From Streptomyces sp. NRRL B-24484 (GTDB lineage Bacteria; Actinomycetota; Actinomycetes; Streptomycetales; Streptomycetaceae), in contig NZ_JOAI01000016.1 in NCBI RefSeq assembly GCF_000717715.1, positions 1 through 64,000 on the forward strand: DNA of 64,000 nucleotides, in the 5' to 3' direction. Shown piece by piece: positions 13,230 to 40,503 of this stretch. The first letter of the stretch is position 1. Every line of letters starts with the position of its first letter. Below the pieces are notes generated by a model, which had not been told where the DNA came from, did not search any database, and saw only the letters and a list, made by a program, of their open reading frames with translations. A program made the translations under genes and the position numbers.

Positions 13230-16200
13230 ATGCGGGAGGGTCCCCAGCGGCGCCGGATCGGCTTCAAGATCCTCGGATCGCTCGAGTGCTGGGAGGGCGA
13301 GGAGCGGATCCGCCTCGGCGGGCCCCTGCAGGAGCGGGTCCTGGCGACCCTGCTGCTGGAGGCCGGCCGGCTCGTCCCGGTCGCCCGCCTCGTGGAGGCC
13401 GCCTGGGAGGACGAACCGCCCGGCACTGCGCCCCACCAGGTCCGCAAGATCATCGCCGACCTGCGCAGACGCCTGCCGGCGGGCGTCGAGCTGATCCTCA
13501 CCGACGGCCCCGGCTACCGGATCGCCCTGGAACCCGACCAGCTCGACCTCGGCCTGTTCGGAGTCCGCCTCGACCGCGCCCGGGAGGCGGTGGCGGCGGG
13601 GCTGCGCGCCAACGCCGTCGACCAGTTGCGGGCCGCCCTCGACCTGTGGCGCGGCCCCGTCCTCTCCGGGCTCGCCACCCCCGTGCTGCAGGCCGCCGCC
13701 ACCGCCCTGGAGGAGCGCCGCCTCGCCGCCACCGAACAACTCCTCGACCTGCGGCTGGAACTCGGCGAGGCCGCCGAACTCGTCGGCGACCTGCGCGAGG
13801 CGGCGCGGCAGCACCCGCTGCGGGAGACCCTGCGCGGCCGCCTGATCCTCGCCCTGTACCGCTCCGGACGGCAGGCCGAGGCGATCGAGGAGTACGGCCG
13901 GGTCCGCGAACTGCTCGCCGAGGAACTCGGCATCGACCCCGGCCCCGAACTCGCCGCCCTGCACCAGGCCATCCTGCGCGGCAGCCCCGAACTCGCCGCC
14001 CCGCCCCGGCCGGCCGCCGAGGAACCGCCGCAGCGCGGCCCGCACGCGCTCGGCCCCGCGCCCAGCGCCATCCCCTACGACCTGGCCGACTTCACCGGCC
14101 GCGAGGACGAACTGGAGCGGCTGCTCGAACTCGCCGCCGCACCCGGCGACCGGGGCACCCGGATCATCGCCATCGACGGCATGGGCGGCAGCGGCAAGAC
14201 CGCCCTCGCCATCCACGCCGCGCACCGCCTCGCCGGGCAGTACCCCGACGGCCGGCTCCACATCGACCTGCACGGCTTCACCCCGCAGCAGCCGCCGCTC
14301 GCCCCCGCCGAGGCCGTCGACGTGCTGCTGCGCATCCTCGGTCTGCCCGGCGACCAGATCCCCGACGACCTGCCCAGCCGGGTCGCCCTCTGGCGGGTCG
14401 TGACCGCCGGCCGCCGCCTGCTGATCGTGCTCGACAACGCCTCCGACGCCGAGCAGGTCCGTGCCCTGCTGCCGGCCTCCGCCGACTGCCTGGTGCTGGT
14501 CACCAGCCGGGTCCGGCTGGTCGACCTGGACGGCGTCGAGTCGATGTCGCTCGGCCTGATGTCGGTCGCGGACTCCACCGCCCTGGTGGAGCGCACCCTC
14601 GACGGCGGGCGCGCCGCCGCCGACCCCGCCGCCACCGCGGAGCTCGTCCGGCTGTGCGGCCGCCTCCCGCTGGCGCTGCGGATCAGCACCGCCCGGCTGC
14701 GCAAGCGCCCGCTGTGGACGGTCCGCCACCTCGTCGACCGGCTCGCCGACGAGACCCGCACCCTGACCGAACTCAGCGCGGGCGAGCGCAGCGTCGCCGC
14801 CAGCCTCCGGCTGTCCTACCTGAGCATGGAACCCGAGTGCCGCACCGCGCTGCGGCTGCTCGGCCAGCACCCCGGCACCGACGTGGACGTCCACTCCGCC
14901 GCGGCCCTGCTCGGCGTCGGCTCCGCCGAGGCCGAGGACCTGCTGGAGCAACTGCTCGACGCCCACCTGCTGGAGCAGCAGGAGTTCGGCCGGTACTCCT
15001 TCCACGACCTGGTGCGCAGCTTCGCCCACGGCCTGCGCGGCGCCGACACGGCCGAGCCCGACGCGGCCTCGCTCACCCGGCTGCTCGACTACTACGTGCT
15101 CGCCGTGGAGGCCGCCTGCGAACGGCTCTTCCCCGGCCGCCTCAGCTACGGCGTCGACCTGCCCGCCGTGGCCGTCGACCTGCCGCCGCTGCCCGACACC
15201 GACAGCGCGCTCGGCTGGTTCCGCGGCGAGCACCGCTCCCTGCTCGCCGCCGTCCGCCTCGCCGCCCGCTCCGGACGGCACTGGCACGCCGCCTACCTGC
15301 CGCGGGGACTGACCTCCTACCTCCGGCTGCAGGGCTGCCCGGACGAGAACCAGGAGGTCGGACGGATCGCCGTCGACTCCGCGCGCGCCGCCGGGGACCT
15401 GCAGCTGCTGCGCCTCGGTCTCACCAACCTCGCCGTCGCGCTGTGGCCGCTCGGCCGGATCCAGGAAGGCGTGGCCTGCCTCAACGAGGCCCGCGAACTC
15501 GCCGTCCGGCTCGGCGACCGGGCGGCCGAGGCCGCCTGCCTGAGCCGCCTCGGCATCTTCCACAACAGCCTCGGCGAGTACACCGAGGGCCTGGACCTGC
15601 TGCACCGGGCGCTGCCGCTGCACCGGGCCTCGGCCAGCCCCCGCGAGGAGGCGGCCACCCTGGTCAGCATCAGCTCCGCCAGCGTCCAGCTCGGTCGCTA
15701 CGCGGAGGCCGCCGAGGCCGCCCGCGGCGGGGTCGACCTGCACCGCGGTCTCGGCGAGCCGGACAACGGCGCACTCGGGCTGATCAACCTGGCCGCCGCC
15801 CAACTCGGCCTCGGCGAGGTCGACTCCGCCATGGCGGCCTTCGGCGAGGCGTACGAGATCCAGCTGCGCCTCGGCCAGTCCGCCAACACCGGCCTGGTCC
15901 TGGCCCGTCTCGCCGAGGCGCACCACCGGCTGGGCCGGCTCGACGAGGCCCGCGAGAACGGGCTGCGCGCCCTCGACCTGATCTGGAGCAGCGGCCTCAC
16001 CACCTGGAAGGCCACCGCCGAGAACATCCTCGGCCGCATCCAGTACGACCTGGACGAACACCTGCTCGCCCAGGAGCGGCACGGGCACGCCCTGCGCCTC
16101 GCCGAGCAGATCGGCTCCCGGATCGAGGCGGCCTACGCCCTCGACGGGCTGGCCCTGACCGCGCTCGCCCTCGGCGACCCGGACGGCGCCCGGGAACACC

Positions 16201-16277
16201 GCCGGCGGGCGGACGGACTCTTCGACCGGATGGGCGTCCCCGAGCAGTACCACCGGCCGGCGGCGCTCCGCCGCTGA
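13230..16277 (+). CDS. AfsR-like SARP regulator with NB-ARC and TPR domains
   Basis: A 1015-aa protein. Order: an OmpR-type winged helix at about residues 8-95 (SLECWEGEERIRLGGPLQER), a bacterial transcriptional activation domain to about 250 (ELGIDPGPELAALHQAIL), an NB-ARC ATPase with P-loop GMGGSGKTALA near 316, and TPR-like repeats from about 700 to the end. SARPs of this size bind phased direct repeats and recruit RNA polymerase to pathway promoters. A TATGAT at 13173-13178 may be its -10. The phased repeats between it and the divergent luxR-like gene suggest control of that gene and possibly of itself. A small secreted-peptide gene ends 23 bp beyond its stop on the other strand. Confidence 0.92.
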   Translation: MREGPQRRRIGFKILGSLECWEGEERIRLGGPLQERVLATLLLEAGRLVPVARLVEAAWEDEPPGTAPHQVRKIIADLRRRLPAGVELILTDGPGYRIALEPDQLDLGLFGVRLDRAREAVAAGLRANAVDQLRAALDLWRGPVLSGLATPVLQAAATALEERRLAATEQLLDLRLELGEAAELVGDLREAARQHPLRETLRGRLILALYRSGRQAEAIEEYGRVRELLAEELGIDPGPELAALHQAILRGSPELAAPPRPAAEEPPQRGPHALGPAPSAIPYDLADFTGREDELERLLELAAAPGDRGTRIIAIDGMGGSGKTALAIHAAHRLAGQYPDGRLHIDLHGFTPQQPPLAPAEAVDVLLRILGLPGDQIPDDLPSRVALWRVVTAGRRLLIVLDNASDAEQVRALLPASADCLVLVTSRVRLVDLDGVESMSLGLMSVADSTALVERTLDGGRAAADPAATAELVRLCGRLPLALRISTARLRKRPLWTVRHLVDRLADETRTLTELSAGERSVAASLRLSYLSMEPECRTALRLLGQHPGTDVDVHSAAALLGVGSAEAEDLLEQLLDAHLLEQQEFGRYSFHDLVRSFAHGLRGADTAEPDAASLTRLLDYYVLAVEAACERLFPGRLSYGVDLPAVAVDLPPLPDTDSALGWFRGEHRSLLAAVRLAARSGRHWHAAYLPRGLTSYLRLQGCPDENQEVGRIAVDSARAAGDLQLLRLGLTNLAVALWPLGRIQEGVACLNEARELAVRLGDRAAEAACLSRLGIFHNSLGEYTEGLDLLHRALPLHRASASPREEAATLVSISSASVQLGRYAEAAEAARGGVDLHRGLGEPDNGALGLINLAAAQLGLGEVDSAMAAFGEAYEIQLRLGQSANTGLVLARLAEAHHRLGRLDEARENGLRALDLIWSSGLTTWKATAENILGRIQYDLDEHLLAQERHGHALRLAEQIGSRIEAAYALDGLALTALALGDPDGAREHRRRADGLFDRMGVPEQYHRPAALRR

Positions 16278-16300
16278 CCGGCCCCGGCATCCGCCGGGGG

Positions 16301-16471
16301 TCAGTGCGAGCCGATGACGTTCCCGGTCGGGTTGTCGCTCGCCAGGGTGACCCGGGCCGCCTCCCCGCGGCCCCGGCCGGCGTCGACCGCCCCGTGCGCG
16401 GCGCCCGACAGGCCCAGCGCCAGCGCGGCGAGGACACCGGCCGAGATCAGGCCGACCAGCTTGCTCTTCAT
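16301..16471 (-). CDS. Small secreted peptide, 56 aa, convergent to the SARP gene
   Basis: ATG at 16471 preceded by GGGGGAA, TGA at 16301. The N-terminus MKSKLVGLISAGVLAALAL is a clear signal-peptide core, followed by GLSGAAHGA as a likely cleavage region, and the short tail ends DNPTGNVIGSH. No known family is recognised. Coding is supported by the start signal, the signal-peptide pattern and a promoter upstream with three phased SARP-like repeats. Its stop faces the stop of the AfsR-like gene, 23 bp away. A role as a secreted signal or envelope peptide under that SARP is inference. Confidence 0.7.
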   Translation of the reverse strand: MKSKLVGLISAGVLAALALGLSGAAHGAVDAGRGRGEAARVTLASDNPTGNVIGSH

Positions 16472-16516
16472 CGTTCCCCCAGCAATTCGTTGTGGTGCCT
16501 TGTTCCGACACCCCGA

Positions 16517-16559
16517 ATGCTCGCGACGGCCGTTCCCGCTCCGTTCCCGTTGCGATACC
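16517..16559 (-). promoter_or_regulatory. Predicted SARP operator and promoter of the 56-aa peptide gene
   Basis: On the minus strand: GGTATCG (16559-16553), GGGAACG (16548-16542) and GGGAACG (16537-16531), each 11 bp apart. Eight bases later is GAGCAT (16522-16517) as a NANNNT -10. Spacing to the start codon (nearest repeat to ATG, about 60 bp) is almost the same as at the luxR-like promoter. Confidence 0.7.
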
Positions 16560-16600
16560 CCCGCCCTGGTACCGCGGGAGCGGGCCCGACCGGCCGGGGA

Positions 16601-17083
16601 TCACTCCCGGGTGCCGCCGCCCGTCGGTGTGTCGTCCGCGGCGGCGTCCCGGCCGCACGCCCAGTGGTACGAGGCGAGCAGCAACTGCCTTGCGACCTCA
16701 GCCTCCTGCTCGTCCCGGGGCCCGTAGACCAGCACCGAGCCGGCCGGTGCGCTGGGTGTGCCCCAGCCGCTGCCGACCACCTCGGCGGCCAGTCCGGGCG
16801 GCAGCATCAGGTGCAGGCTCCCGTCGTAGGGCGGGTGCAGGTGGCCGAACTCGGTGACCGCCAGGAACGCCTGCGCCGGGCCGTGCGCCAGCGTCGGGGA
16901 CACGTGTCCGCCCACGCTGCCGGCCACGCAGTCGAAGGACGGCCCGGGGCGCACCCCGGGCAGCGCACCGAGCAACTGCTCCAGGGCCGCCCGCAACGGG
17001 GCCGGGCCGCACTGGGTGATCTGCTCCACGGGCGGTTCGACGGAGACGAGCGGGCGCGGACCGGTGCGCACGGGCAGAGGCAT
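16601..17083 (-). CDS. DUF5519 / luciferase-family-like protein, 160 aa
   Basis: The ATG at 17083 follows AGGAGAG. The protein carries the pattern FGHLHPPYDGSLHLMLPPG, then AAEVVGSGWG and VLVYGPRDEQEAEVA, which I recall as the family annotated DUF5519 or luciferase domain. Its members are about this length and have no firmly known activity. A helical C-terminus with a single cysteine follows. The gene has its own promoter with three phased GGGAACG-type repeats, so it probably belongs to the regulon of the nearby SARP together with the 56-aa peptide. The name luciferase should not be read as light emission. Confidence 0.7.
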   Translation of the reverse strand: MPLPVRTGPRPLVSVEPPVEQITQCGPAPLRAALEQLLGALPGVRPGPSFDCVAGSVGGHVSPTLAHGPAQAFLAVTEFGHLHPPYDGSLHLMLPPGLAAEVVGSGWGTPSAPAGSVLVYGPRDEQEAEVARQLLLASYHWACGRDAAADDTPTGGGTRE

Positions 17084-17117
17084 GGGGGCTCTCCTGTTCG
17101 ATCAGGGCTTTCCCCGC

Positions 17118-17160
17118 AGCCTCCCGCCGGCCGTTCCCGTCCCGTTCCCGATCCGCTCCG
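17118..17160 (-). promoter_or_regulatory. Predicted SARP operator and promoter of the DUF5519-like gene
   Basis: On the minus strand: a degenerate CGGAGCG (17160-17154), GGGAACG (17149-17143) and GGGAACG (17138-17132), all at 11-bp spacing. Eight bases on is GAGGCT (17123-17118), again NANNNT. It is the third copy of the same arrangement within 4 kb. Confidence 0.7.
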
Positions 17161-17192
17161 GGGGCGCCTGCCGCAGACTATCTGACTTGGCG

Positions 17193-17663
17193 TCACCCGC
17201 AGTGGCTGGCCAGGGTGCTCTTCTCGGCGACCTTGCTGTTGTGGGGGTCGTCGACCCGGCCGTAGACCATGATGCAGCGGTTGGCGGTGCCGGTGATCTT
17301 GGCGGGGCCGGCGTACCAGGCGAAGGTGCCGTCGTTGCTGTCGGACTTGTCGTAGTCGCAGAATTCGCCGGCCTTGGTGCCGGCCACGCAGCGCCAGATG
17401 AACACGGACTGGTACTTGGTGACCCCCGAGCCGAAGTGGGTGTCGACGGCGGCCGCGCAGTTCGTGCCGCCGTTGGCGCTGCTGTAGTAGAGGTACAGCT
17501 CGCCGTACTTGGTGCCGGTGCCGTTGTCGGTCTTGAGGTCGTAGCTGTCGACCAGGTTGCCGCTGCAGCCGTAGGTCGAGGCGGCGCTCGCCTGCGGTGC
17601 GAGGGTGATGCCGCCGACGAGCACGAGGCCTGCGGCGGCCAGTGCGGAGAGTGTCGTACGCAT
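17193..17663 (-). CDS. Secreted SpaA-like (spore-associated protein A-type) protein
   Basis: A 156-aa exported protein. The start is the ATG at 17663, with signal peptide MRTTLSALAAAGLVLVGG and cleavage likely after QASA. The mature part has eight cysteines and stretches such as YLYYSSANGGTNCAA and FAWYAGPAKITGTANRCI. The pattern (tyrosine-rich strand, NC, then YAGP and a late cysteine) resembles Streptomyces spore-associated protein A, a small secreted protein of unclear function. The resemblance is from memory. It lies downstream of the terminator that ends the I36-CHAP gene and is probably monocistronic. Confidence 0.65.
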   Translation of the reverse strand: MRTTLSALAAAGLVLVGGITLAPQASAASTYGCSGNLVDSYDLKTDNGTGTKYGELYLYYSSANGGTNCAAAVDTHFGSGVTKYQSVFIWRCVAGTKAGEFCDYDKSDSNDGTFAWYAGPAKITGTANRCIMVYGRVDDPHNSKVAEKSTLASHCG

Positions 17664-17770
17664 GTGGGTGCTCCCTGGGTCGGTGCGCGCGGATTGTCCG
17701 GGCCCGTACCTTCTACCGGTCCGGTGTAGCGCGCCCGTAGCCCGCCGTGTGCCCGACCTCGGACCGGCGG

Positions 17771-17836
17771 CACGGCGAAGCCCCGTCGGGCAGGGGCGAC
17801 CTGGGAGGGTCATCTGCCCGACGGGGCTTCGCCGTG
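17771..17836 (-). terminator. Rho-independent-type terminator hairpin
   Basis: A perfect 23-bp inverted repeat (arms 17771-17793 and 17814-17836) with a 20-nt loop. It lies about 105 bp downstream of the minus-strand I36-CHAP gene and upstream of the SpaA-like gene. There is no long T tract, which is usual for actinobacterial terminators. Confidence 0.8.
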
Positions 17837-17941
17837 TGTCGCTGCGGCTCCGGCGCACGTCGTCACACCGCCGTCACCTGCACGCTCGCGAGGTCACCCC
17901 GGCTGCGAGGTGGTCCCGGGCGCGGGTGTGCCGGGGGCTGC

Positions 17942-18772
17942 TCAGAAGTGGAGCATGTGCTGGAAGGAGTTCTCCGCGCTGCTCACGCGGAGGTGGCTGC
18001 GGGTGCCGTAGGCGAGGCGGTTGTTCCAGTTGTACTCCTCGACGTCGAAGGAGCCGTCGGAGTAGACCGCGTTGACGTAGGCGACGTGGCCGTACTCCCC
18101 GTGGGTGTCGTTGACGGCGATGGCGCCGACGGTGGGCGTGGTGTTGACGGTGACGCCGACGCGGCGCGCGGCGTCGTCCCAGGTGGCGGCGTTGCCCCAG
18201 GTGGTGCCGCCCCAGGAGTTGCTGAAGTTCGGGACGCCGAGACGGCTGGCGATGCGGTACGCCGCGAAGGCGGTGCAGTTGTCGGCGGCGAAGCCGCGGG
18301 TGCCGTGGTCGAAGTCGTTGGTGGGGCTCTGGTTGCTGCCGCCGCCGCCGGTGCTGCCGAGGAACTGGTGGGAGGCCTCGTTGTTCTTCAGCGTGGAGTT
18401 GAGGTTGCCCTTGGCGCCGGGGGCGAAGTCCTGGCTGGCGCCGGCGTAGCCGCTGTTGAAGTAGACGCGGACGGTCTTGTCGGAGCGGTTCCACACCGAT
18501 GCGGCGTTGTTCTTGACGCAGACGCCCTGGCCGTTGCCGGCGCTCTTGAACTCGTAGCAGGACGGCTGGGTGGCGCCGTAGTCGCTGATGGAGCCGGTGA
18601 AGTCGGAGACCGAACCGGCCTGGTCGCTGTTGTAGTAGAGGCAGAACTCGCCGGTGTCGCAGGATCCGTCGCGGGACGCGGCGAAGGCGGGCGCGGAGGT
18701 GGCGCCGATGAGCGGAACGGCCATGGCCAGTGCGGTGCCGGCGATGGTGAGCGTGGTGCGTATGTTCCTCAT
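17942..18772 (-). CDS. Secreted fusion of peptidase-inhibitor I36-like domain and CHAP amidase
   Basis: A 276-aa exported protein (ATG 18772, signal peptide ending at about APAFA). Residues about 36-140 are an I36-like domain (EFCLYYNSDQAG, VCVKNNAASVWN, VYFNSGYAG, LKNNEASHQFLG). Residues about 160-276 form a CHAP domain: the cysteine in AADNCTAFAAYRIASRLG, the histidine in HGEYGHVAYV, and a following EEYNW. CHAP enzymes cut peptidoglycan cross-links or stem peptides. The I36 part is homologous to the whole mature protein at 20264, so the gene looks like a domain fusion of that family. It is followed by a strong terminator. Confidence 0.85.
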   Translation of the reverse strand: MRNIRTTLTIAGTALAMAVPLIGATSAPAFAASRDGSCDTGEFCLYYNSDQAGSVSDFTGSISDYGATQPSCYEFKSAGNGQGVCVKNNAASVWNRSDKTVRVYFNSGYAGASQDFAPGAKGNLNSTLKNNEASHQFLGSTGGGGSNQSPTNDFDHGTRGFAADNCTAFAAYRIASRLGVPNFSNSWGGTTWGNAATWDDAARRVGVTVNTTPTVGAIAVNDTHGEYGHVAYVNAVYSDGSFDVEEYNWNNRLAYGTRSHLRVSSAENSFQHMLHF

Positions 18773-18839
18773 GGTCTTCTCTCTCGGTGAGGTGTCGTCA
18801 GCGGGTGCTTCGGTCGTGCTCGGGAGGTGCCGTGCGCGG

Positions 18840-19730
18840 TCAGTGGGTGCGCTGGTACTCCTCCCAGGTCTGGATGGGGATGCGGGGGCCGTCGTCGGCG
18901 GCGTGGTTGGCCAGGCCGTTGAGGCCGAGGTAGTAGTCACCGGTCTGGTTCTGGGCCTGGGTGGACAGATCGGTGTCGCTGATCGCCGCAGCGTGGATGT
19001 GCCACGGCCAGTTGCCCTGGTTGGGGTTGCGGACCCAGGCGGCGAACCCGACCTGGCGCAGTGCCTTGGCGACGGCGGTGCGGGTGCTGCTGGACATGCC
19101 GTCGACGCTGATGTCCACGACGCCACCGCCGTCGTGGGTGCCGGCGGAGGTGGGGTCGCCGCCGGGGTTGTAGGAGCCCTGGGACAGGGTGAGGTGGGAG
19201 CCCAGGATGCGCTCGGCCTCGGTGAGCATGTTCTGGGTGCGGGTGTCGACGGTGTATCCGTCGCGCTGCAGCTTCGCGCCGGGGCCGATCTTGTCGGTGA
19301 CGGTGAACCGGCCCTGCCCGAGTGCGGCGAGGGAGGAGGCGCCGGGCAGTCCGTTGGCGTCCAGGCCGGTGTAGCCGAGGGAGCGCTGGAAGGCGGCGTA
19401 GGCGGTGATGGTGGTGGTGCCGAAGTACCCGTCCACCCAGCGGGCGTCGAGGAGGTTACGGGCCTGCAGGGCCCGCTCGACGGCCAGGACCGAGTCCTTG
19501 GCCCCCGGGGTCAGCGTGCTGTCGGCGCGCCGGGGGTCGATCTGGGCGGCCTTGACGGTGGCTTCCATGTCCACCACGGGCAGTGCGGCGGCGGTGGCGG
19601 CCGATGCCTCGGTCCGGGGCGGAGGGGTTGCCGCGTGGGCCTGTGCGGCGCTCGCCACCAGGCCGCTCAGGACGGCGACGGCCGCGAGCAGCCGGGTGGC
19701 GGTGCTCCGGGTCTTGATGACGGATGCCAT
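18840..19730 (-). CDS. Secreted peptidoglycan-binding protein with M15-like peptidase domain
   Basis: A 296-aa protein starting at the ATG at 19730 with a signal peptide (cleavage near AQAHAA). Residues about 75-145 match a peptidoglycan-binding type 1 domain (VERALQARNLL, WVDGYFGTTTITAYAAFQRS, GLPGASSLAALG). The C-terminal half has AGTHDGGGVVDISVDGM and NWPWHIHAA, which resemble the zinc-site sequences of M15-type peptidases (S/T-x-H-x-x-G-x-x-x-D and H-x-H). It probably trims or binds cell-wall peptides outside the cell. It lies 67 bp upstream of the I36-CHAP gene on the same strand and may be co-transcribed with it. Confidence 0.75.
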   Translation of the reverse strand: MASVIKTRSTATRLLAAVAVLSGLVASAAQAHAATPPPRTEASAATAAALPVVDMEATVKAAQIDPRRADSTLTPGAKDSVLAVERALQARNLLDARWVDGYFGTTTITAYAAFQRSLGYTGLDANGLPGASSLAALGQGRFTVTDKIGPGAKLQRDGYTVDTRTQNMLTEAERILGSHLTLSQGSYNPGGDPTSAGTHDGGGVVDISVDGMSSSTRTAVAKALRQVGFAAWVRNPNQGNWPWHIHAAAISDTDLSTQAQNQTGDYYLGLNGLANHAADDGPRIPIQTWEEYQRTH

Positions 19731-20263
19731 GTGGTGGTTCCTTTCGGTTCGGTGGAGGATCCGGCCCGACCCCGTCCCGCTGTCTGTCGGGCACCGGGCG
19801 GGTGAGGGCTCCGACGGACGGCTCCCGACCGGCGCGGCGCCGAGCGGCACCGCCGGTCGCTGCGGCCGTCGACGGGGCAGCGGCCGTGGTCGCACGGCAC
19901 GTGAGGGTTCGAAGAGGGATCGGTCCGCTCTGAACGGGCCACGGGTGCAAGGGGATTGCGTCGCCGGGCCCGCGTCGGGGCTCGTTTCGTCCAAGACGCT
20001 AGGAGGTGCCGATAGCGCGCCCGTATCGCGTCCGGAGTCGCCCGGGCAGCGAGGTCATGCCTCAATGGCCGTCCCTTGAGCGGGAGTTGGGGTCAGGACG
20101 GGCCGCGCCACCGGGCGGCTACGGCCGCGATACCGCCCTTCGCCAGCATGAATCCGCCACCGGCCGCCATGATCAACACGGCGGCCGGCATCACGCTGCG
20201 GGGACCGGACGGTCGCCCGCGGAGGGCGCCGGACGCTCCGGAGCCCTGTACGGAAGGAACACC
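19731..20263. other. Divergent intergenic region between two secreted-protein genes
   Basis: 533 bases between the minus-strand peptidoglycan-binding gene and the plus-strand I36 gene. A 32-codon hydrophobic frame on the minus strand (20093-20191) has no ribosome binding site and is not called. A GGAAGGAA ribosome binding site precedes 20264. No firm promoter motif was identified. Confidence 0.4.
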
Positions 20264-20680
20264 ATGGCGATCAGGAAGTTCATCTCGGCCGCGCTCGTGG
20301 CCGGCACCGTCGTGACGGCCGGACTTGCGTCCGCCGGGAGCGCCTCCGCCCTCACTGCCGACTGCCAGGGCGGCCAGGTCTGCCTCTACTACAACTCCAG
20401 CGCCCACGGTTACGGCGCGGTGTACATCGAGACCACCAGCATCGAGAACTACGCGGGCCTGACGTTCAAGGCCGGCAAGAACGGCAGCGCCGGCGCCGGC
20501 GTCGCGGTGAAGAACAACGCTGCCGCCGTGGACAACCACTGGTACGGCACGTTCAACGTCTTCTACAACAGCGGCTGGGACTGCAGCGTCGCCTGCCAGC
20601 CGATCCCGATGAACACTCACCGGGACCTCAACGCCCAGCTGAAGAACAACAACGCCTCGGGCGAGCTCGTCGGCCCGTGA
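20264..20680 (+). CDS. Secreted peptidase-inhibitor I36-like protein
   Basis: A 138-aa exported protein; the ATG at 20264 follows GGAAGGAA. The signal peptide begins MAIRKFISAALVAGTVV and ends near GSASA. The mature part has VCLYYNSSAHGYGAVY, VAVKNNAAAVDNHW, VFYNSGWDCSVAC and LNAQLKNNNASGE, the repeated YYNS/VKNNAA pattern of the I36 family. That family contains a Streptomyces metalloprotease inhibitor and many small surface proteins. It parallels the N-terminal domain of the CHAP fusion at 17942. Function as an inhibitor is only a family-based guess. Confidence 0.8.
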   Translation: MAIRKFISAALVAGTVVTAGLASAGSASALTADCQGGQVCLYYNSSAHGYGAVYIETTSIENYAGLTFKAGKNGSAGAGVAVKNNAAAVDNHWYGTFNVFYNSGWDCSVACQPIPMNTHRDLNAQLKNNNASGELVGP

Positions 20681-20801
20681 TCCGACGGCACCCGTCAGCA
20701 CCGAGCACCCCGCACCGGTCCCCGGCCGCCCCGCTGCGGCCGGGGGCCGGCGCACGGCCGCCCGTCCCCGCCGGCCGCGCCGTTCCGAAGGAGACCCGCC
20801 C

Positions 20802-31625: not shown

Positions 31626-32324
31626 CTAGTCGTTGCCGGGCCAGCCGTCGAGCATGCGGTGCACCGTCACGCCGGGGCGTTCGGCCAGGCTGCGGTTCGA
31701 GGGGGCGGCCGGGGCGGCGGGCTGGGCGGCGACGGCGGCCTGCAGGATGTCGGTGATCTCGGCGACCTTCGCGTCGACGGTGGCCTTCAGCTGCGCCGGG
31801 TCCTGGGTCCGCGCGGCCGAGCGCACGGCCTTCTCGACCGCGGCCAGTCTGCGCAGCGTGTCCTGGCCGAGCCGGACGGGCTGCGGGGTGTTGATGACGA
31901 ACTGGTAGGCGCCGGCCACGGCCTGGCAGCCGCCGCAGTGCACGGTGGTCGCCTTGCTGTTGTTGTCGGCGTCGACGTGCACGTCACTGCCGCCCGTGGT
32001 GACGATCTGGAAGGAGAGCGCGACGGCGCGGCAGTGCTGTCCCTCGCTGCAGTACCGGGCCGTGGCGACCGCCCGGTTGTCGACGTCGAGCCCGCTCGTC
32101 CGGCCGAACTGGCGGATCTCGAAGGCGACGTCGGTGTTGTGGGTCCGCACCGGGCTGGCCACGGCGACGGCGTGGGTCCGCTCGTAGCGGACCTGGCTGG
32201 CGTCCGCGGTGGCGGCGGCCGGTCCGACCAGCAGGACGGCGGCGGCCACCGCGGGTACGAGCGGGCCCGAGCGGAGGAGGCGGCCGAGCCGGCGGGTCGG
32301 GGTGGTGCGGTGCGATCGGTTCAC
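31626..32324 (-). CDS. Secreted hypothetical protein associated with an M50-like membrane protein
   Basis: A 232-aa protein from a GTG at 32324 that follows GGAG. It has a basic N-terminus and a signal peptide ending near TADA. The mature part has paired cysteines (ARYCSEGQHCRAVALSFQIV and VHCGGCQAVAGAYQFV), then a helical segment with KATVDAKVAEITDILQ. I do not recognise a named family. It starts 19 bp after the stop of the PqqD/M50-like gene and is clearly in the same operon. That context suggests a secreted partner or product-handling protein of a peptide pathway. Confidence 0.75.
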   Translation of the reverse strand: MNRSHRTTPTRRLGRLLRSGPLVPAVAAAVLLVGPAAATADASQVRYERTHAVAVASPVRTHNTDVAFEIRQFGRTSGLDVDNRAVATARYCSEGQHCRAVALSFQIVTTGGSDVHVDADNNSKATTVHCGGCQAVAGAYQFVINTPQPVRLGQDTLRRLAAVEKAVRSAARTQDPAQLKATVDAKVAEITDILQAAVAAQPAAPAAPSNRSLAERPGVTVHRMLDGWPGND

Positions 32325-32343
32325 GAGGTGCTCCAGGCGGGGT

Positions 32344-34344: not shown

Positions 34345-34374
34345 GTCACCTTCCGGGCTGGCAGTCGTTGGAAG

Positions 34375-34427
34375 TGCGGAAAGTGTTTCCGGCGGCGATT
34401 CCGGCGCCACCGGAAACACTTTCCGCA
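34375..34427 (-). terminator. Strong hairpin between the 69-aa peptide gene and the M50-like gene
   Basis: A perfect 18-bp inverted repeat (34375-34392 and 34410-34427) with a 17-nt loop. It lies 130 bp after the peptide gene and 30 bp before the GTG of the M50-like gene. It may partly stop transcription so that the peptide is made in excess of the membrane protein, or stabilise the peptide mRNA; both are inferences. Confidence 0.7.
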
Positions 34428-34558
34428 TGATTTCCGTGAACGGGTCAGAAATGCCGGTCGGGGGCCCGGCCGCGTGCCGGCTGCCCTGCCGGCCGCCCTC
34501 CGTTCACAGCACCCGGGCCGTCCTCACGGGCGGCCGGGCGTCAGCGGCGGAACATCCG

Positions 34559-34768
34559 TCACTGGTGGATGGAGATGTACTGGTTCGCCTCCGAGCCCGC
34601 CAGGGAGTCCCAGGAGTGGTCGTTGTAGGAGACCGAGTTGTTCTCCGCGTAGACGACGGCGTGCTTGGTGACCGTGGTCTTGTGGAGGTTGAAGCTGAAG
34701 CGGCTCAGCGCCTCGCGCTTCGGCAGCAGCTCGGCGGTCTCGGTCTCCAGGACGGACATGTCGATCAT
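34559..34768 (-). CDS. Candidate RiPP precursor or signal peptide, 69 aa
   Basis: ATG at 34768 with GGAG 14 bp upstream; a second in-frame ATG at codon 4 is an alternative. There is no signal peptide. The N-terminal half is leader-like and charged (MSVLETETAELLPKREALSR). The C-terminal half is rich in S, N, T, A, V and H (VVYAENNSVSYNDH, then WDSLAGSEANQYISIHQ). That split, a good promoter at 34851-34880, and the PqqD/M50-like gene directly downstream all fit a ribosomally made peptide precursor. I have a vague memory of similar LLPxREAL peptides in other actinobacteria, but no named product. No tailoring enzyme other than the M50-like protein is adjacent. Confidence 0.65.
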   Translation of the reverse strand: MIDMSVLETETAELLPKREALSRFSFNLHKTTVTKHAVVYAENNSVSYNDHSWDSLAGSEANQYISIHQ

Positions 34769-34797
34769 GAGGATCCATTTCTCCGTACGGTTGCGCT

Positions 34798-34824
34798 CGG
34801 GGCGGCCGCGGCTCGGCCGCCCCG
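34798..34824 (-). promoter_or_regulatory. Leader hairpin of the 69-aa peptide gene
   Basis: A perfect 11-bp inverted repeat (34798-34808 and 34814-34824) with loop CGGCT, located in the predicted 5' leader 30 bp before the ATG. It could be an mRNA stabiliser or attenuator. Confidence 0.5.
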
Positions 34825-34850
34825 GTCGGACGGGTGTCCGACGGAGCTGG

Positions 34851-34880
34851 ACACTACGGCGGCGCCGCGACGCAGAGCAA
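34851..34880 (-). promoter_or_regulatory. Predicted promoter of the 69-aa peptide gene
   Basis: On the minus strand TTGCTC (34880-34875), 18 bp, TAGTGT (34856-34851). This is close to the Streptomyces vegetative consensus TTGACN-N18-TAGRRT. The predicted transcript start is about 75 bp before the ATG. Confidence 0.55.
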
Positions 34881-35136
34881 GGAACCGGATACGTCGGGTG
34901 ATCGATTTCGCGTGAATAGTGCCTGCATTCGCACGGCAATGCCGGACGGTCCGGAGGTCGAAAATCCCGTCGAATTCGGCGGGGTTCCGGGATTCTTCGT
35001 ATCCGAGGTTCTCGGCGGCGCGCGGGGGGTCGGCGACTTCACTCGATCGGCTCAGCTCACCGGCGTGTTCCCGAACGGCCCGTCAGGCCCGGTGCGGGGC
35101 CGGGGGCGCGTCCGGCGGGGCCGGCCCGGCGCCGGG

Positions 35137-35228
35137 CCGCGGCGCACCCGGCTCGGGCGGGCCTGACGAGGCGCGAACCGCGGCGCACCCGGCTCGGGCG
35201 GGCCTGACGAGGCGCGAACCGCGGCGCC
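35137..35228. repeat. Tandem direct repeat, 41-bp unit, two full copies and a partial
   Basis: Two identical 41-bp units (35137-35177 and 35178-35218) are followed by the first ten bases of a third. The unit is GC-rich and contains CCTGACGAGG. It lies in the 583-bp intergenic region between the 69-aa peptide gene and the second SARP gene, which otherwise shows no gene. It may be a local duplication without function or a repeated binding site. Confidence 0.85.
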
Positions 35229-35351
35229 GGTTGTCCGCGTCCTGTCGACGGGGCGCCCGGGATTCCAGTCGATCGACGGGGGTGCCCGCCGGAGGCCGGG
35301 GCTAGCCTGACCCCGGGGGTGGGGCGGATCAGCAGCAAAGGGCACGAATCC

Positions 35352-38300
35352 ATGGACGATCTCAGGCTCTCCGTCCTGGGGCCGATGCAGGTGCGGCGGG
35401 GGGCGGCGGCGCTCAGGACGGGCGGCCCGCAGCAGCAGGCGATGCTGGCGGTGCTCCTGCTGCGGCGCGGACTCGCGGTCGGTACGGGCGAGTTGGCGCA
35501 GGCGATCTGGGGCGACGAGCCGCCCGGCACGGCCACCGGCATCATCCGGACGTACGCCTGGCGGTGGCGGCGCGTCCTGGAGGACGGCGATGGCCCGCCG
35601 GTGCTGGCCACCGGCGGCGACGGCTACCGGCTCGACCTGCCGACCTCCGCGGTGGACGTATTCCGCGCAGAGGAGGCGGCGGCCTGTGCGGAGCGGGCGA
35701 GCACCGACGGCGAGACCGCCCAGGCCCGTGATCTGCTCGACGGGGCCCTGGAGTTCTGGCGGGGCGAACCGCTCGCCGGGATCCCGGGACCGTTCGCCGA
35801 ACGGTGGCGGCGGCTGCTCGCCGACCGCCGGCTGGCGCTGCTGGAGGAGCGGATCGCCCTGGACCTCGCGCTCGGCGGCCACCGGCGCTGCGTCCCGGAG
35901 TTGACCGAGCTCGCCGCGGCGCACCCGCTGCGCGAGCGCGTCCACCTGCTGCTGATGCGGGCGCTGGCACAGGCCGGCCGCACCGCCGACGCGCTGGCCG
36001 CCTTCCGTACCGTACGCCGCACCCTGGTCGGTGAGTTGGGAATCGGGCCGGGTGCCGAGCTGGAGGCCGAGCACCGCCGGATCCTGGCCGGCGAGGGCTC
36101 CGTCGAGGCGCCGGCGCAGCCGGTGGTCCCGGCCCCGGTCCCGGCGCCGACGTCGGCCGCCGCACCGGCGGTGGCGCCACCGGCCGCGCCGCTGCCCGGG
36201 CGGGCGCCGCGGACCGCCCCGGTGCTGCCCGTGCCGGGGCAACTGCCGCCGGACACCGCGGACTTCGTGGGGCGGGAGACGCTGGTGATGGGGCTCGGGG
36301 AGGCCCTGGTCTCGCCGGTGAACGGGACGCCCGCGATCGTGTCCGTGGCCGGCATGGGCGGGGTCGGCAAGACCACGCTGGCGCTCCACGTCGCCCACCA
36401 GGTCCGCCGGTTCTTCCCGGACGGGCAGCTCTACGCGGACCTGCGGGGGGAGGGCCCGGCCGGCGGCCGCCCGGCGGCCGTGCTGGGCAACTTCCTGACG
36501 GCGCTCGGCATCGCGCCGGAGGCGGTGCCGGACGGGACGGAGGACAGGTCCGCGCTCTTCCGTTCCCTGGTGGCCGACCGCAGGCTGCTCCTGGTGCTGG
36601 AGAACGCGGACGAGGCGGCCTCCGTCCGTCCGCTGCTGCCCGGCACCCCGGGCTCCGCCGTCCTGCTCACCAGCCGTACGGGGGCGGCGAGTTCGCTCGC
36701 CACCCTGCACGCCGACCTGGAGCTGTTCACGCCGGAGGAGGCGCTCGGCCTGCTCGGCCGGGTGATCGGTCCGGAGCGGCTGGCGGCCGAGCGGCCCGCC
36801 GCGATCGGACTCGTCTCCGCCTGCGGCCACCTGCCGCTGGCGGTGCGCATCGTGGCGGCCCGGCTCGCCGCCCGTCCGGCGTGGACGGTCGCCAGCATGA
36901 ACGACCGGCTGGCGGTGGAGGTCCGCCGGATCGACGAACTGCGGATCGGCGACCTCGCGGTGGAGGCCGCGTTCGCGCTCGGCTACCGGCAGCTCTCGGC
37001 GGAGCAGGCCCGGGCGTTCCGGCTGGTCGCCGCCGTGCCGGGTGCGGACATCGGGCTGAACGCCGCGGCGGCGGCGCTCGCGGTCGGCCCGGACGACGCC
37101 GAGGACCTGCTGGAGTCCCTGGTGGACGTGCGGATGGTGGAGTCGCCGCGGATCGGCCGCTACCGCTACCACGACCTGCTGCGGTCCTTCGCGCAGCGGA
37201 CCTCGCGGCGCACCGACCCCGGTGAGGCCGCCGCCGCCCGGCACCGGCTGCTCGGCTTCCTGGCCGCGACCGGCCACGAGGCCTTCCGGCAGGGCTGCCC
37301 GGGGGACGAGATCGACCGGGTGTTCGCCCGTCCGTCGGCCGCCGGCCTGTCCTTCGCGGACCGGGTCGAGGCGCAGTCCTGGGTGTCGGCGGAGTCCGGG
37401 ACGGCCGTCGCGCTGGCGCACCGGATCGGCGCCGAGCCGCCGGACGGCGAGGGCGCCGACCCGGACCACCGGGAACGGCTGAACGGCGCGGTCGACCTGC
37501 TGGTCATGCTGAGCCCGTTCGAACTCGGTCCGCACCGCGGCCCACTGGTGGCGGCGGTGGACGCGCTCGCCGAGGCGGCCGTCCGGCGGGGCGACGCCCG
37601 CGTCGAGGGCCGGGCGCGCTTCCTGCGCGGCAACATCGCGCTCGACCTGCACCGGCTCTCCGAGGCGCGCCGCCAGACCCGGCTTGCCGCGGCCGCGAGC
37701 CGCGCGGCCGGGGACACCGCGATCCTGCGGCAGGTGCTCAACGACGGCGGGCTGGTCGCCCAGTACCTCGCGGACTACGACGAGGCCGACGCGCTCTACG
37801 GCGAGGCGGTCGAACTCGCCCGCCGCCTCGGGCACCGGGCCGGCGAGGTGGTCACCCGGGTCAACGTGGCACTGGCCCGGGTGTACGGCGGCCGGGCCGA
37901 GGAGGGGGCGGCGGTCTGCCGGGCGGTCCTCGCCGACCTGGCCCGTGGGCTGCCCGGGGGCCCGGCGGAGGAGGGCCCCGGCCGGGCCTACGCGATGTAC
38001 GTGCTGGGCCTGGCCCTGCACACGAGGGGGGACCACCCGGAGGCGGCCGAGTGGTTCGGCCGCAGCATGGCGCTGGCCGCCGGCCTCGGTCTGGAGGTGC
38101 GGGCGGCGCAGTCCCGCTACCGGCTGGCCGACAGCCTGCGGGCGGCGGGCCGGCTGCGGCAGGCCGTCGGGCACGCCGAGGCCGCCCTCGCCGCCTGCGA
38201 GGTCCTGGGCGCCGAACGCGACCAGGCGCACGCGCTGCTGGTGCTGGGCCGGGCCCTGGCCGAACTCGGCGAGGACGGCCGGGCCCGGTCCTGCCTGCTG

Positions 38301-38393
38301 CGGGCCCAGGCGCTCTTCGCCGGTCTCGGCCTGCCGGTCGACGCGCACCACGCGGACCTGGTGGCCGACCTGGTGTCGGCCCGGACGGTCTGA
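35352..38393 (+). CDS. AfsR-like SARP regulator with NB-ARC and TPR domains (second copy)
   Basis: A 1013-aa protein with the same order as the regulator at 13230: winged helix (LRLSVLGPMQVRRGAAALR), activation domain (RRTLVGELGIGPGAELEAEH), an A/P-rich linker, NB-ARC with P-loop GMGGVGKTTLA near residue 334, and TPR repeats over the last 350 residues (YDEADALYGEAVELARRLG). I chose ATG 35352, which gives the usual SARP N-terminus; an in-frame start at 35319 would add 11 residues. It lies between peptide genes on both sides, and a convergent small secreted-peptide gene follows a shared terminator. Sequence differs clearly from the first SARP, so it is not a recent duplicate. Confidence 0.9.
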   Translation: MDDLRLSVLGPMQVRRGAAALRTGGPQQQAMLAVLLLRRGLAVGTGELAQAIWGDEPPGTATGIIRTYAWRWRRVLEDGDGPPVLATGGDGYRLDLPTSAVDVFRAEEAAACAERASTDGETAQARDLLDGALEFWRGEPLAGIPGPFAERWRRLLADRRLALLEERIALDLALGGHRRCVPELTELAAAHPLRERVHLLLMRALAQAGRTADALAAFRTVRRTLVGELGIGPGAELEAEHRRILAGEGSVEAPAQPVVPAPVPAPTSAAAPAVAPPAAPLPGRAPRTAPVLPVPGQLPPDTADFVGRETLVMGLGEALVSPVNGTPAIVSVAGMGGVGKTTLALHVAHQVRRFFPDGQLYADLRGEGPAGGRPAAVLGNFLTALGIAPEAVPDGTEDRSALFRSLVADRRLLLVLENADEAASVRPLLPGTPGSAVLLTSRTGAASSLATLHADLELFTPEEALGLLGRVIGPERLAAERPAAIGLVSACGHLPLAVRIVAARLAARPAWTVASMNDRLAVEVRRIDELRIGDLAVEAAFALGYRQLSAEQARAFRLVAAVPGADIGLNAAAAALAVGPDDAEDLLESLVDVRMVESPRIGRYRYHDLLRSFAQRTSRRTDPGEAAAARHRLLGFLAATGHEAFRQGCPGDEIDRVFARPSAAGLSFADRVEAQSWVSAESGTAVALAHRIGAEPPDGEGADPDHRERLNGAVDLLVMLSPFELGPHRGPLVAAVDALAEAAVRRGDARVEGRARFLRGNIALDLHRLSEARRQTRLAAAASRAAGDTAILRQVLNDGGLVAQYLADYDEADALYGEAVELARRLGHRAGEVVTRVNVALARVYGGRAEEGAAVCRAVLADLARGLPGGPAEEGPGRAYAMYVLGLALHTRGDHPEAAEWFGRSMALAAGLGLEVRAAQSRYRLADSLRAAGRLRQAVGHAEAALAACEVLGAERDQAHALLVLGRALAELGEDGRARSCLLRAQALFAGLGLPVDAHHADLVADLVSARTV

Positions 38394-38404
38394 GGGCCCG
38401 TCGC

Positions 38405-38443
38405 ACGGCGCGTCCCGGGTGCCCGGTACCCGGGACGCGCCGT
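38405..38443. terminator. Bidirectional terminator
   Basis: A perfect 16-bp inverted repeat (38405-38420 and 38428-38443), loop GCCCGGT. It lies between the convergent SARP gene and the small secreted-peptide gene. Confidence 0.85.
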
Positions 38444-38453
38444 CGGCGGACGG

Positions 38454-38714
38454 TCAGGAGACGGTCGGCGGCCGGTGGTAGTCGGCGCCGGTGCTGTTCC
38501 ACGAGGCGATGTGGATCTCCCGGGACGGGACGCCCGCGGTGTGCGCCGGCGATCCGGTGGAGCCGTCGCCGGCCGAGGCGCCGGTGTTGTTCCACGACTC
38601 GATCGGGATGTCCGCGGCCGAGGTGCCCGCGGCGCCGAGCAGCAGCGCGCAGGCCGCCGCACCGGTGAGCAGCGCCCGCCGCAGGGTCCGCCGCATTTCC
38701 GTCGCCTTCTTCAT
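38454..38714 (-). CDS. Small secreted peptide, 86 aa, with internally repeated WN-TGA motif
   Basis: ATG at 38714; a second ATG at codon 7 (38696) has the better upstream AAGG and is equally possible. The signal peptide core is RRALLTGAAACALLLGAAG with cleavage near TSA-AD. The mature part holds two related blocks, IPIESWNNTGAS and IHIASWNSTGAD, separated by a Gly/Ser/Thr-rich spacer, and ends YHRPPTVS. No known family is recognised. It converges on the second SARP gene with a shared terminator. The duplication of a short motif in a secreted peptide would fit a processed signal with two copies; this is inference. Confidence 0.68.
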   Translation of the reverse strand: MKKATEMRRTLRRALLTGAAACALLLGAAGTSAADIPIESWNNTGASAGDGSTGSPAHTAGVPSREIHIASWNSTGADYHRPPTVS

Positions 38715-38800
38715 CTCCGGTCCGCCTTTCTGTCGGCCGCCGGTCGGGCGCGCGTCGCACCGGCGTCAGAATTCCGGGTGCAAGCGCCTTCTCCGGGCGG

Positions 38801-38846
38801 CGTTTATCGGGTTGTACATCGGTTGTAGATGTGCGCGGGATAGCGT
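38801..38846 (+). promoter_or_regulatory. Phased 11-bp repeats with -10, divergent peptide promoter region
   Basis: Three 11-bp units run from 38801: CGTTTATCGGG, TTGTACATCGG (38812) and TTGTAGATGTG (38823). The last two share TTGTA and ATnnG. TAGCGT (38841-38846) follows as a plus-strand -10. The 11-bp phasing resembles SARP sites, but the heptamer differs from GGGAACG. The region drives the peptide genes at 39001 (+) and 38714 (-). Confidence 0.45.
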
Positions 38847-39000
38847 TCCTGTGTGCCGTCGACCACGGCACGGAAGACCGCCGGAATGCCTTCCGGCGGG
38901 TGCTTTCCGGAGCCGCTCGGGGAATCCCGGGCCGGCTCCGACCGGGGTGTCCGGCGTACCGGCCGGACCCCCGTCCCGCACTCGGTACTCAGGAGTTGTC

Positions 39001-39162
39001 ATGCGTCGTATCCCGGTTGGCACGGCCTGCGCCGGCCTCGTCCTCGCCCTGCTGGCCGTCCTCGGGTGGGCCGCGTCGCCGGTCGCCGGCGGCGCGGTCA
39101 CCGCGGACGGCGCGGTGGTGTCGACCGACGCGGCGACCGGGGACTTCCCGGCCTGCTGCTGA
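39001..39162 (+). CDS. Small secreted peptide, 53 aa, ending in a Cys-Cys pair
   Basis: ATG at 39001 with an excellent AGGAG 7 bp upstream. The signal-peptide core is VGTACAGLVLALLAVLGWAA, with cleavage near SPVAGGA. The short mature tail is acidic and ends TGDFPACC, then TGA. Its stop directly abuts the stop of the XRE-TPR regulator on the other strand (39162/39163). No family is recognised. The combination of a tiny exported peptide and a convergent TPR regulator recalls RRNPP-type peptide sensing in Firmicutes, so it is a candidate pheromone; function is inferred. Confidence 0.7.
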   Translation: MRRIPVGTACAGLVLALLAVLGWAASPVAGGAVTADGAVVSTDAATGDFPACC

Positions 39163-40503
39163 TCAGCGGCGGCGGGCCGGTCCGGGGCGGTGGGGCAGCA
39201 GGCTGCCCCGCCGCCCCAGGCAGCGCATGCCCTGCTGGTAGGCGTGCACGGCCCGTTCGCTCTCGCCGGCTCTGTCGAGGATCTCGGCGAGCTCGGCCCA
39301 GGCGAAGGCGGCCTGCCGGTCCGCGCCGGACGCCTCCAGCATCAGCGCACCCCGCTCGCAGGACTCCCGCGCGCCGGCCTCGTCGCCCTGCTCCTGCAGG
39401 GCCGCGGCGAGGACGAGCAGCGTCCGGGCGGTCTCCAGCCGGTGGCCGGGACCGAGCAGTTCCAGGGCTCTGCGGGCGTGCTCGGCCGCGGCCGCCGGGT
39501 CGCCGGCGAGCAGTTCGGCGCGGGCCATCGCGGTCTCGCAGTACGCCAGGTCGATGCTGCTGCCCTCGCGGACGAGCGTGTCGGCGCTGCGGCGCAGCAG
39601 GTCCCTGGCGGCCTCGACGTCGGGTTCGTCGCGCTGCAGCAGCACGGTGGCGTAGGCGTTGCGGAGCCGGGCGACGGCCCGCTCGTTCTCGCCCTCGGCG
39701 TAGATCGCCAGCGCCCGCTGCACCAGCATCAGGGCGTTCTCCGAGTCGCCGCTGCGGTGGGCCGCCAGGCTGGCGTTCCAGTAGACCGCGCCGAGCGCCT
39801 TCGGGTCCTCCACCTGCCGGGCCTGCTCCAGGCCGAGCGAGGCGAGGTAGGAGGCGCGGTGCAGGTCGCCGCGTTCGGAGTGCAGTCCGACCAGCGTGGA
39901 GAGCAGCTCCATGCCGGTGACGGTGGGCAGCAGGCCGAGCCGCTGCACCTCGTTGAGGGTGGTCTCGGCGAGGTCGACGGCGTGTGCGAGGTCGCCGAGT
40001 TCGCGGTAGCAGCGGCAGAGCGCCACGACCACGGTGAGCCGGCCGGCGCCCTGCCGGGCGGGCCGGCCGCCGGCGTGCAGCCGCTCGTAGCGCACCACGG
40101 CCTCCTCCAGCCGCCCGCACAGCTCCAGTGCCTGGGCGGTGCCGAGTTCGGCCTGGGCCGCGATGTCGTCCTGGCCGGCGTCCGAGGCCTCGGCGGAGAC
40201 CTTCTCGTAGGCGCGCAGGGCGCCCTCGCTGTCGCCGTTGCGCAGCATGATCTCCGCGTAGCGGAGTTCGACCTCGATGTCCTCGGTGCGGGCGCGCGGC
40301 ATCAGGCCGAGCAGCGCCTTCGGGTCGCAGCCGAGCCGTTCGGCGAGCTGCTCGACCACCTTGGTCGTCGGAACCCGCTTGCCCGCCTCCAGCAGCGAGA
40401 CGTAGCTGGGCGACAGGTCGTCCCCGGCCAGGTCGGCCTGGGAGAGCTTCGCGGCCCGCCGGAGCTGTCGGATCCGGTTGCCGAGCTCTTGGTTGTCCGC
40501 CAC
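39163..40503 (-). CDS. XRE helix-turn-helix regulator with TPR domain
   Basis: A 446-aa protein from a GTG at 40503 that follows AAGGAGGGG. Residues about 7-68 form an XRE helix-turn-helix (GNRIRQLRRAAKLSQADLAG, SYVSLLEAGKRVPTTKVVEQ). The rest is a series of TPR helix pairs (GDLAHAVDLAETTLNEVQRL, GDSENALMLVQRALAIYAEG, GDPAAAAEHARRALELLG). This architecture is shared with peptide-sensing RRNPP regulators and with several Streptomyces antibiotic regulators. An 11-bp inverted repeat overlaps its ribosome binding site. It lies beside the GTP cyclohydrolase-type cluster and the 53-aa peptide gene and may link both. Confidence 0.85.
   Translation of the reverse strand: MADNQELGNRIRQLRRAAKLSQADLAGDDLSPSYVSLLEAGKRVPTTKVVEQLAERLGCDPKALLGLMPRARTEDIEVELRYAEIMLRNGDSEGALRAYEKVSAEASDAGQDDIAAQAELGTAQALELCGRLEEAVVRYERLHAGGRPARQGAGRLTVVVALCRCYRELGDLAHAVDLAETTLNEVQRLGLLPTVTGMELLSTLVGLHSERGDLHRASYLASLGLEQARQVEDPKALGAVYWNASLAAHRSGDSENALMLVQRALAIYAEGENERAVARLRNAYATVLLQRDEPDVEAARDLLRRSADTLVREGSSIDLAYCETAMARAELLAGDPAAAAEHARRALELLGPGHRLETARTLLVLAAALQEQGDEAGARESCERGALMLEASGADRQAAFAWAELAEILDRAGESERAVHAYQQGMRCLGRRGSLLPHRPGPARRR

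Follow-up and report, generated by a model that had tools for sequence, protein, structure and literature searches.

The window analysed here comprises the first 64,000 nucleotides of contig NZ_JOAI01000016.1 of the soil bacterium Streptomyces sp. NRRL B-24484, and holds three TPR-containing regulators, each paired with a small gene for a predicted secreted peptide. Two of the regulators are large SARPs, SARP1 (13230..16277, plus strand, 1015 amino acids) and SARP2 (35352..38393, plus strand, 1013 amino acids), and the third is an XRE-TPR protein of 446 amino acids (39163..40503, minus strand). They converge on pep56 (16301..16471, minus strand, 56 amino acids), pep86 (38454..38714, minus strand, 86 amino acids) and pep53 (39001..39162, plus strand, 53 amino acids), respectively, with 23, 60 and 0 bp between the stop codons. 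This convergence had been proposed in a first-pass annotation, and coordinates, strands, stop codons, lengths and gaps all proved exact; equally, the three are, as claimed there, the only TPR regulators in bases 1-64000 among the genome's TPR_12 matches (122 matches, with 150 of 398 candidates scored and TPR_12 as the one TPR family scanned). The gene pairs are real and conserved, and fall into three regulator-peptide families.

Pfam recognises BTAD, NB-ARC and TPR domains in both SARPs, and HTH_31 together with TPR_12 (58 bits) in the XRE protein. The NCBIfam AfsR model yields 564 bits for SARP1 and 779 bits for SARP2, an AfsR paralogue, below the equivalog cut-off of 1430. The three window peptides score 3.75, 3.85 and 4.36 with a crude n-region/h-region/cleavage rule, not SignalP, for which a cut-off of 3.0 applied in the own-genome control and one of 2.6-2.8 in the SARP1 and SARP2 locus scans. 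The tail of pep56 reads ...VTLASDNPTGNVIGSH and the C-terminus of pep53 ...TGDFPACC, while pep86 carries its core twice (IPIESWNNTGA, 38577..38609, and IHIASWNSTGA, 38484..38516, both minus strand). None of the three matches a Pfam family at E 0.001 or an NCBIfam model over its cut-off, pep86 giving one weak match (16 bits vs 100). Protein databases returned three relatives of pep86, all named hypothetical, one unnamed relative of pep56 (79% identical), and for pep53 only the peptide itself. Two direct repeats of SARP type were located, CGGGAAC-ggag-CGGGAAC upstream of pep56 (16532..16549, minus strand) and GGTTGTA-catc-GGTTGTA (38810..38827, without strand) within a 286-bp region common to pep86 and pep53. 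The SARP-type promoter noted earlier at one peptide gene hence has a counterpart; such repeats do exist, but precede both pep56 and pep86.

The XRE-TPR family was surveyed in two sets of loci, numbered with the prefix L here and below. In a search of 100 genomes, the closest homologues adjoin signal-peptide open reading frames (ORFs) with a CC end, and a scan of named genomes recovered at least 80 XRE-TPR loci, one labelled as a Spirochaetaceae metagenome-assembled genome and the others actinobacterial; the sets have at least three genomes in common (L007/L153, L008/L132 and L011/L159, at zero distance on the tree). A -CC peptide was defined as an ORF of 30-110 amino acids with a hydrophobic segment after a basic stretch, CC in the last 20 residues, and a distance of at most 600 bp from the regulator gene. 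By this final rule, such a peptide is present at 68 of the 80 named loci and at 18 of the 30 from the genome search, where L003 and the 11 weakest matches make up the 12 exceptions. In the named loci, the near zones contain 88 matches in 146 kb vs 2 stray matches in 571 kb of far zones, and an earlier, stricter rule gave 59/80 loci vs 0 in 572 kb of far zones. By eye, three more named loci qualify (L091, at 909 bp; L102, at 435 bp with a start outside the zone; and L112, with the ORF start just outside), raising the count to about 71/80. Further XRE-TPR paralogues without -CC peptides, several of them in tandem, were seen at L280-L288.

Adjacency is not tied to one arrangement in this family. 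The 88 -CC records comprise 64 divergent, 15 convergent, 6 upstream co-directional (two of which look spurious) and 3 downstream co-directional cases, and on a 110-row tree, built by a quick method, the five arrangement labels, including 'none', change 19 times. The window clade alone (23 rows, SH-aLRT 100) contains 13 convergent, 4 downstream, 2 divergent and 1 upstream arrangement besides 3 rows without peptide, and thus adjacency outlives rearrangement. Convergence as an essential feature was consequently rejected for XRE-TPR by the orientation counts and the tree, and the convergent layout that had been taken as common to all pairs is the rule for the SARP pairs only. The 20 window-clade peptides have the tail [DEGN][IVFL]PxCC, and those of other clades share little beyond CC. 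At two alignment columns of the receptor, residue 59 and residue 163 or 165, 14 of 17 members have a Cys, which may bear on the -CC peptides. In a near relative (L278), the order of SARP2 (forward), its peptide gene (reverse), pep53 (forward) and XRE-TPR (reverse) is kept, with the stops of pep53 and XRE-TPR again 0 bp apart, a SARP2-peptide gap of 81 bp, and pep53 identical at 50 of 53 positions.

Upstream of the -CC peptide genes, the palindrome TTGAC-N7-GTCAA is present within 200 bp at 28 of 85 loci, other spacings giving 0 or 1. A looser form ending in GTCA is found at 30/85; other spacings give 0-4, shuffles average 0.03-0.15, and among 3175 far windows there is a single match. The palindrome is a candidate operator of the XRE-TPR protein. 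A common 7-mer was also sought upstream of the window-clade -CC peptides, without excess over shuffles.

The genes surrounding the XRE-TPR loci bring in a different explanation, in which the -CC peptides would be secreted to bind metal (copper) and the XRE-TPR protein would regulate copper homeostasis. Vicinal cysteines bind soft metals, and in a Streptosporangiaceae/Thermomonosporaceae clade the regulator is followed by CopC-like (24/80) and CopD-like (30/80) genes, assigned by blastp clusters and Pfam-checked in L119 only. These clusters have, however, no member in the window clade or in Streptomyces/Kitasatospora loci, the receptor alignment lacks an invariant Cys or His, the two Cys columns mentioned above being the only ones of their kind, and the SARP peptides have no such motif, rendering copper binding improbable as the function of the pairs. 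Genes for CopC and CopD/CtaG stand directly after the XRE-TPR gene in loci such as L119 (7359-9943), a hint at copper as a target. Moreover, one blastp cluster that includes a SARP (without Pfam check) has members close to XRE-TPR in 12 loci, of which seven belong to the window clade, and signal-peptide ORFs with WNNT occur in the XRE-TPR loci L093, L100 and L109. Together with the GGTTGTA repeat in the pep86/pep53 region, these neighbours make a link between SARP2 and the -CC peptides possible.

For SARP2, the 30 best loci among 70 genomes of the genus include 27 where a signal-peptide ORF with WN or YN in its tail converges on the regulator gene, the three without a convergent WN peptide being L181, L184 and L195. 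WN[NSTA]TG is found in 19 of these 27 peptides (DWNSTGS, SWNTTGA and EWNNTGA, among others) and the remainder vary (WNSSTS, WNNTSS, WNTKV, YNGTG). Outside the genus, 72 genomes from the rest of the family gave 11 SARP2 loci at 48-54% identity; 9 of the 11 have a convergent WN-type ORF, three of the nine with WN[NSTA]TG, and none was found at L294 and L301. The TPR half of SARP2 is 41-45% identical to AfsR proteins of other genera.

Analogously, a signal-peptide ORF converges on the regulator gene at 13 of 30 SARP1 loci; these 13 belong to the 22 closest (at least 44% identity), and no convergent one was found at the eight more distant loci. Twelve of the 13 peptides hold [LV]A[SDE][DN][NRKS], as in LASDNPAGNVIGSH, VVADDRPVSNTIGPF and VLAEDKGPT, the exception being L072, with a doubtful TTG start; the peptide of L073 contains three copies of [AG]DNK[GD]PY. 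Among further SARP1 relatives, L074 and L075 have signal-peptide ORFs on the same strand, and L067 has none.

At a spacing of 11 bp, perfect 7-base direct repeats stand before 5 of 13 SARP1-type and 12 of 27 SARP2-type peptide genes, compared with 0-3 and 0-6 at other spacings and shuffle means of 0.38 and 0.67, respectively. All five SARP1-type repeats are GGGAAC-like, and 9 of the 12 SARP2-type repeats are GTTGATC-like or TACAACC. A spacing of 11 or 22 bp is given for SARP repeats in the accessible part of PMC10936776, and the CGTTGATC repeats of the SARP2 group resemble the AfsR site, given as repeats CGTT(T/C)ATCGNN in the text available of PMC10972967. Since the 11-bp repeats precede the peptide genes and resemble known SARP and AfsR sites, each SARP probably activates its own peptide gene.

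Small frames of this kind might also be chance ORFs in high-GC intergenic DNA. As a control, the genome's 28 other TPR genes with placeable 3' ends were assessed (five stretches without an assigned frame were dropped), and two (0/15 plus 2/13) have a convergent signal-peptide-like ORF within 500 bp at a score of at least 3.0, both with weak GTG starts. Thus, the three window pairs exceed chance. These two ORFs speak for a chance origin; against it stand the far-zone and shuffle controls and cores common to regulators that are otherwise only ~33-66% identical, leaving it extremely improbable, and as a general account chance ORFs are refuted by the far-zone, shuffle and own-genome controls. The idea that every TPR regulator comes with a peptide was likewise rejected, 26 of the 28 other TPR genes having no convergent one.

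Peptide signalling via the TPR regulators is the most likely function of the pairs, with a probability of roughly 0.6 in our estimate. The sequence itself shows that pairing and cores are conserved, that the peptide N-termini look like signal peptides, that SARP-type repeats are present, that some relatives have a palindromic operator candidate, and that the predicted fold is RRNPP-like. Each would form a two-gene peptide-signalling or self-sensing unit, in which the small gene would give rise to a Sec-exported propeptide. The C-terminal core (...DFPACC; WN[NST]TG-like, once or twice; LASDNP...) would be set free outside the cell, probably be re-imported by an oligopeptide permease, and be bound by the TPR domain of the neighbouring regulator, changing its transcription activity. 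The XRE-TPR pair would then work like RRNPP quorum sensing, and the SARP pairs like AfsR-AfsS with an exported AfsS-like product, where binding of the SARP to the 11-bp direct repeats would switch on its own peptide gene in an autoregulatory loop. What we infer here are the export, processing and re-import of the peptide, its binding by the TPR domain, recognition of the repeats by the SARP, and the target genes. DFPACC, DWNSTGS, SWNNTGA and LASDNPTGNVIGSH are the predicted cores and short candidate ligands; between near relatives, DFPACC of pep53 and the first pep86 core are unchanged, and one change was counted in the tail of pep56 and one in the second core of pep86. With pairs and predicted cores defined in this way, short synthetic peptides can be used to test directly for peptide signalling in antibiotic producers.

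The regulator-plus-exported-peptide system put forward in the first-pass annotation is in this respect strongly supported by the conserved pairs, the control zones, the motifs of the cores, the candidate operator and the SARP-type boxes. Peptide genes missing beside orthologous regulators had been named there as a refutation; checked in relatives, they are conserved. The peptides do, on the other hand, separate into three families, and the resemblance of the SARP pairs to exported variants of AfsR-AfsS was absent from that account, which is overall partly supported.

Several findings weigh against the signalling function. At nine of the 80 named XRE-TPR loci, visual inspection likewise revealed no -CC peptide (L118 among them is truncated by the contig end), none was found at the tandem XRE-TPR paralogues and the other XRE-TPR gene of the genome, and many counted loci are near relatives, so that the counts are not independent events. 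The window pep53 has no TTGAC-N7-GTCAA, the shared 286-bp region containing GGTTGTA-catc-GGTTGTA instead, and the 30 loci with the palindrome, many of them closely related, include none from the Streptosporangiaceae. MalT and eukaryotic TPR proteins match the predicted XRE-TPR fold as well as or better than the pheromone receptors, TPR folds being generic. On the SARP side, 3 of the 12 SARP2-group repeats (L193, L196 and L198) differ in sequence and may be chance, convergent TDNP[SG]PN ORFs at L081 and L082 have no signal peptide, and neither has an ORF of 31-44 amino acids ending in G[RG]SGxGADIGPS downstream of SARP1 homologues at L076-L079. Finally, a selection test gave no clean result: near-relative codon changes, silent to changing, amount to 3:13 for pep56, 4:12 for pep86, 6:3 for pep53 and 51:8 for XRE-TPR, that is, pep56 and pep86 show more amino-acid-changing than silent changes. 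As a separate observation, the small ORF of L076-L079 stands behind a GGTATCG..ACGGGAAC-like repeat.

Other parts of the window were also inspected. A 69-amino-acid frame divergent from SARP2 (34559-34768, minus strand; MIDMSVLETETAELLPKREAL...SEANQYISIHQ) is similar to precursors of ribosomally synthesized and post-translationally modified peptides (RiPPs), and the longer TTG frame has no Pfam match. Upstream of the XRE-TPR gene, on the same strand, lie methyltransferase and PhyH dioxygenase genes (40611-42451, minus strand), which together with an AMP-binding protein (46981-48360) possibly form a small biosynthetic cluster.

Known systems of comparable layout exist. FxSxx-COOH and HaaA systems, where an NB-ARC-TPR protein accompanies a short peptide, are radical-SAM RiPP systems. 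NCBIfam TPR models of these systems match both SARPs below cut-off; no maturase of this type was found in Pfam scans of 26 window ORFs, several of which are probably not genes. NosP provides a precedent for a SARP that responds to peptide, yet its ligands are peptidyl and stem from the nosiheptide RiPP precursor rather than from an exported pheromone gene, according to the portion of PMC10972967 at hand. Searches of the open PMC literature, not all of them directed at this point, brought up no account of a TPR regulator paired with a secreted cognate peptide in Actinobacteria. The large-scale RRNPP survey covers Firmicutes and viruses, and typical actinobacterial signals are small molecules, as far as the excerpt of PMC10075063 goes; for Streptomyces, the accessible text of PMC13220807 names gamma-butyrolactones. 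Pairs kept in many related bacteria are therefore a pointer to peptide signals in a group whose better-known signals are small molecules.

Compared with the RRNPP systems (Rap-Phr, PlcR-PapR, NprR-NprX, Rgg-SHP and AimR-AimP), the XRE-TPR pair likewise combines an HTH and TPR receptor of 446 amino acids with an adjacent Sec-type propeptide of fewer than 100, a similar predicted TPR fold, and, for some relatives, a candidate operator next to the peptide gene. All five RRNPP features set out in the available part of PMC10075063 are found in XRE-TPR and pep53, among them a propeptide of 10-100 amino acids (53), a receptor of 250-500 amino acids with TPRs (446) and genes as direct neighbours, with the signal peptide assigned by the crude rule only. 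SARP1 and SARP2 exceed this receptor length. The predicted fold matches Rap-pheromone and NprR chains (Foldseek, VIA) and AimR, but also unrelated TPR proteins, and PlcR is in the Foldseek list, but not among the 50 VIA matches listed. In contrast to RRNPP systems, the XRE-TPR pairs are actinobacterial, their peptides end in or near -CC, their orientation varies, and peptide binding is putative.

For the SARP pairs, AfsR-AfsS is the closer parallel. AfsS is a 63-amino-acid sigma-like protein with three repeats of 12 residues (PMC2267785, consulted in excerpt). In a scan limited to the plus strand and with start codons not settled, a same-strand ORF 3' of afsR contains D.HAT, D.HAS or DN.MP-type repeats at 30 of 30 AfsR loci, all above the AfsR model cut-off. 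At an AfsR locus of another genus (L300), DWHATG is present twice, close to DWNSTG. No AfsS-like neighbour was detected for C36, which is the closest AfsR orthologue in the genome. In another scan, AfsS ORFs were detected at 10 of 30 AfsR loci and none scores a signal peptide. After afsS, signal-peptide ORFs were found with SDNHMP twice in L226 and with DNHAYSPAP in L244. Same-strand signal-peptide ORFs also follow the AfsR genes of L306, L310 and L313, ending in PD[TN]W[GS]N[AV]. As signal-peptide ORFs with AfsS motifs are thus found besides AfsS, exported and non-exported AfsS-like products coexist. In L217, a frame 3' of afsS resembles an exported AfsS, with three DSHAS repeats and no ATG, GTG or TTG start before the hydrophobic segment.

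AfsS also underlies the main rival explanation, namely that the peptides are outputs rather than ligands, the regulator turning on a small effector (AfsS-like, a secreted antimicrobial or unmodified RiPP-like) that acts elsewhere. In the accessible part of PMC10972967, AfsS is an established AfsR target, described downstream of AfsR and not as its ligand, acting on pathway activators by an unknown route, which weighs against signalling; the SARP-type repeats before the peptide genes and the AfsS ORFs without signal peptide would likewise fit an output. The same logic would, however, have to be invented anew for the unrelated XRE-TPR family, at whose loci no gene family besides the regulator occurs in more than 30 of 80 (ORFs of at least 100 amino acids, heuristic gene calls), and short cores behind variable linkers, sometimes repeated (three times in L073, twice in the window), look like pheromone precursors. 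We therefore regard an output-only role as rather unlikely.

Returning to peptide signalling, the relation of SARP to peptide resembles that of AfsR to AfsS. The window SARPs share with AfsR the SARP-NB-ARC-TPR architecture and a small adjacent 3' gene behind 11-bp direct repeats, and the AfsS motifs DNHATG and DWHATG resemble DWNSTG and LASDNPTG, a likeness too short for a homology score. They differ in that both score below the AfsR equivalog cut-off and that their peptide genes are convergent with a signal peptide, whereas AfsS is encoded on the same strand without one where tested. The SARP pairs hence look like exported variants of AfsR-AfsS, and offer a clue to the possible input of the TPR domain in AfsR-like regulators and to the possible origin of AfsS. 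More tentatively, and with doubt prevailing, there may be a large unrecognised actinobacterial peptide-pheromone layer that operates via XRE-TPR and STAND-type SARP receptors, of which classical AfsR-AfsS would be a member with a lost export signal; if true, AfsS-type repeats would be the ligand code of AfsR-like TPR domains.

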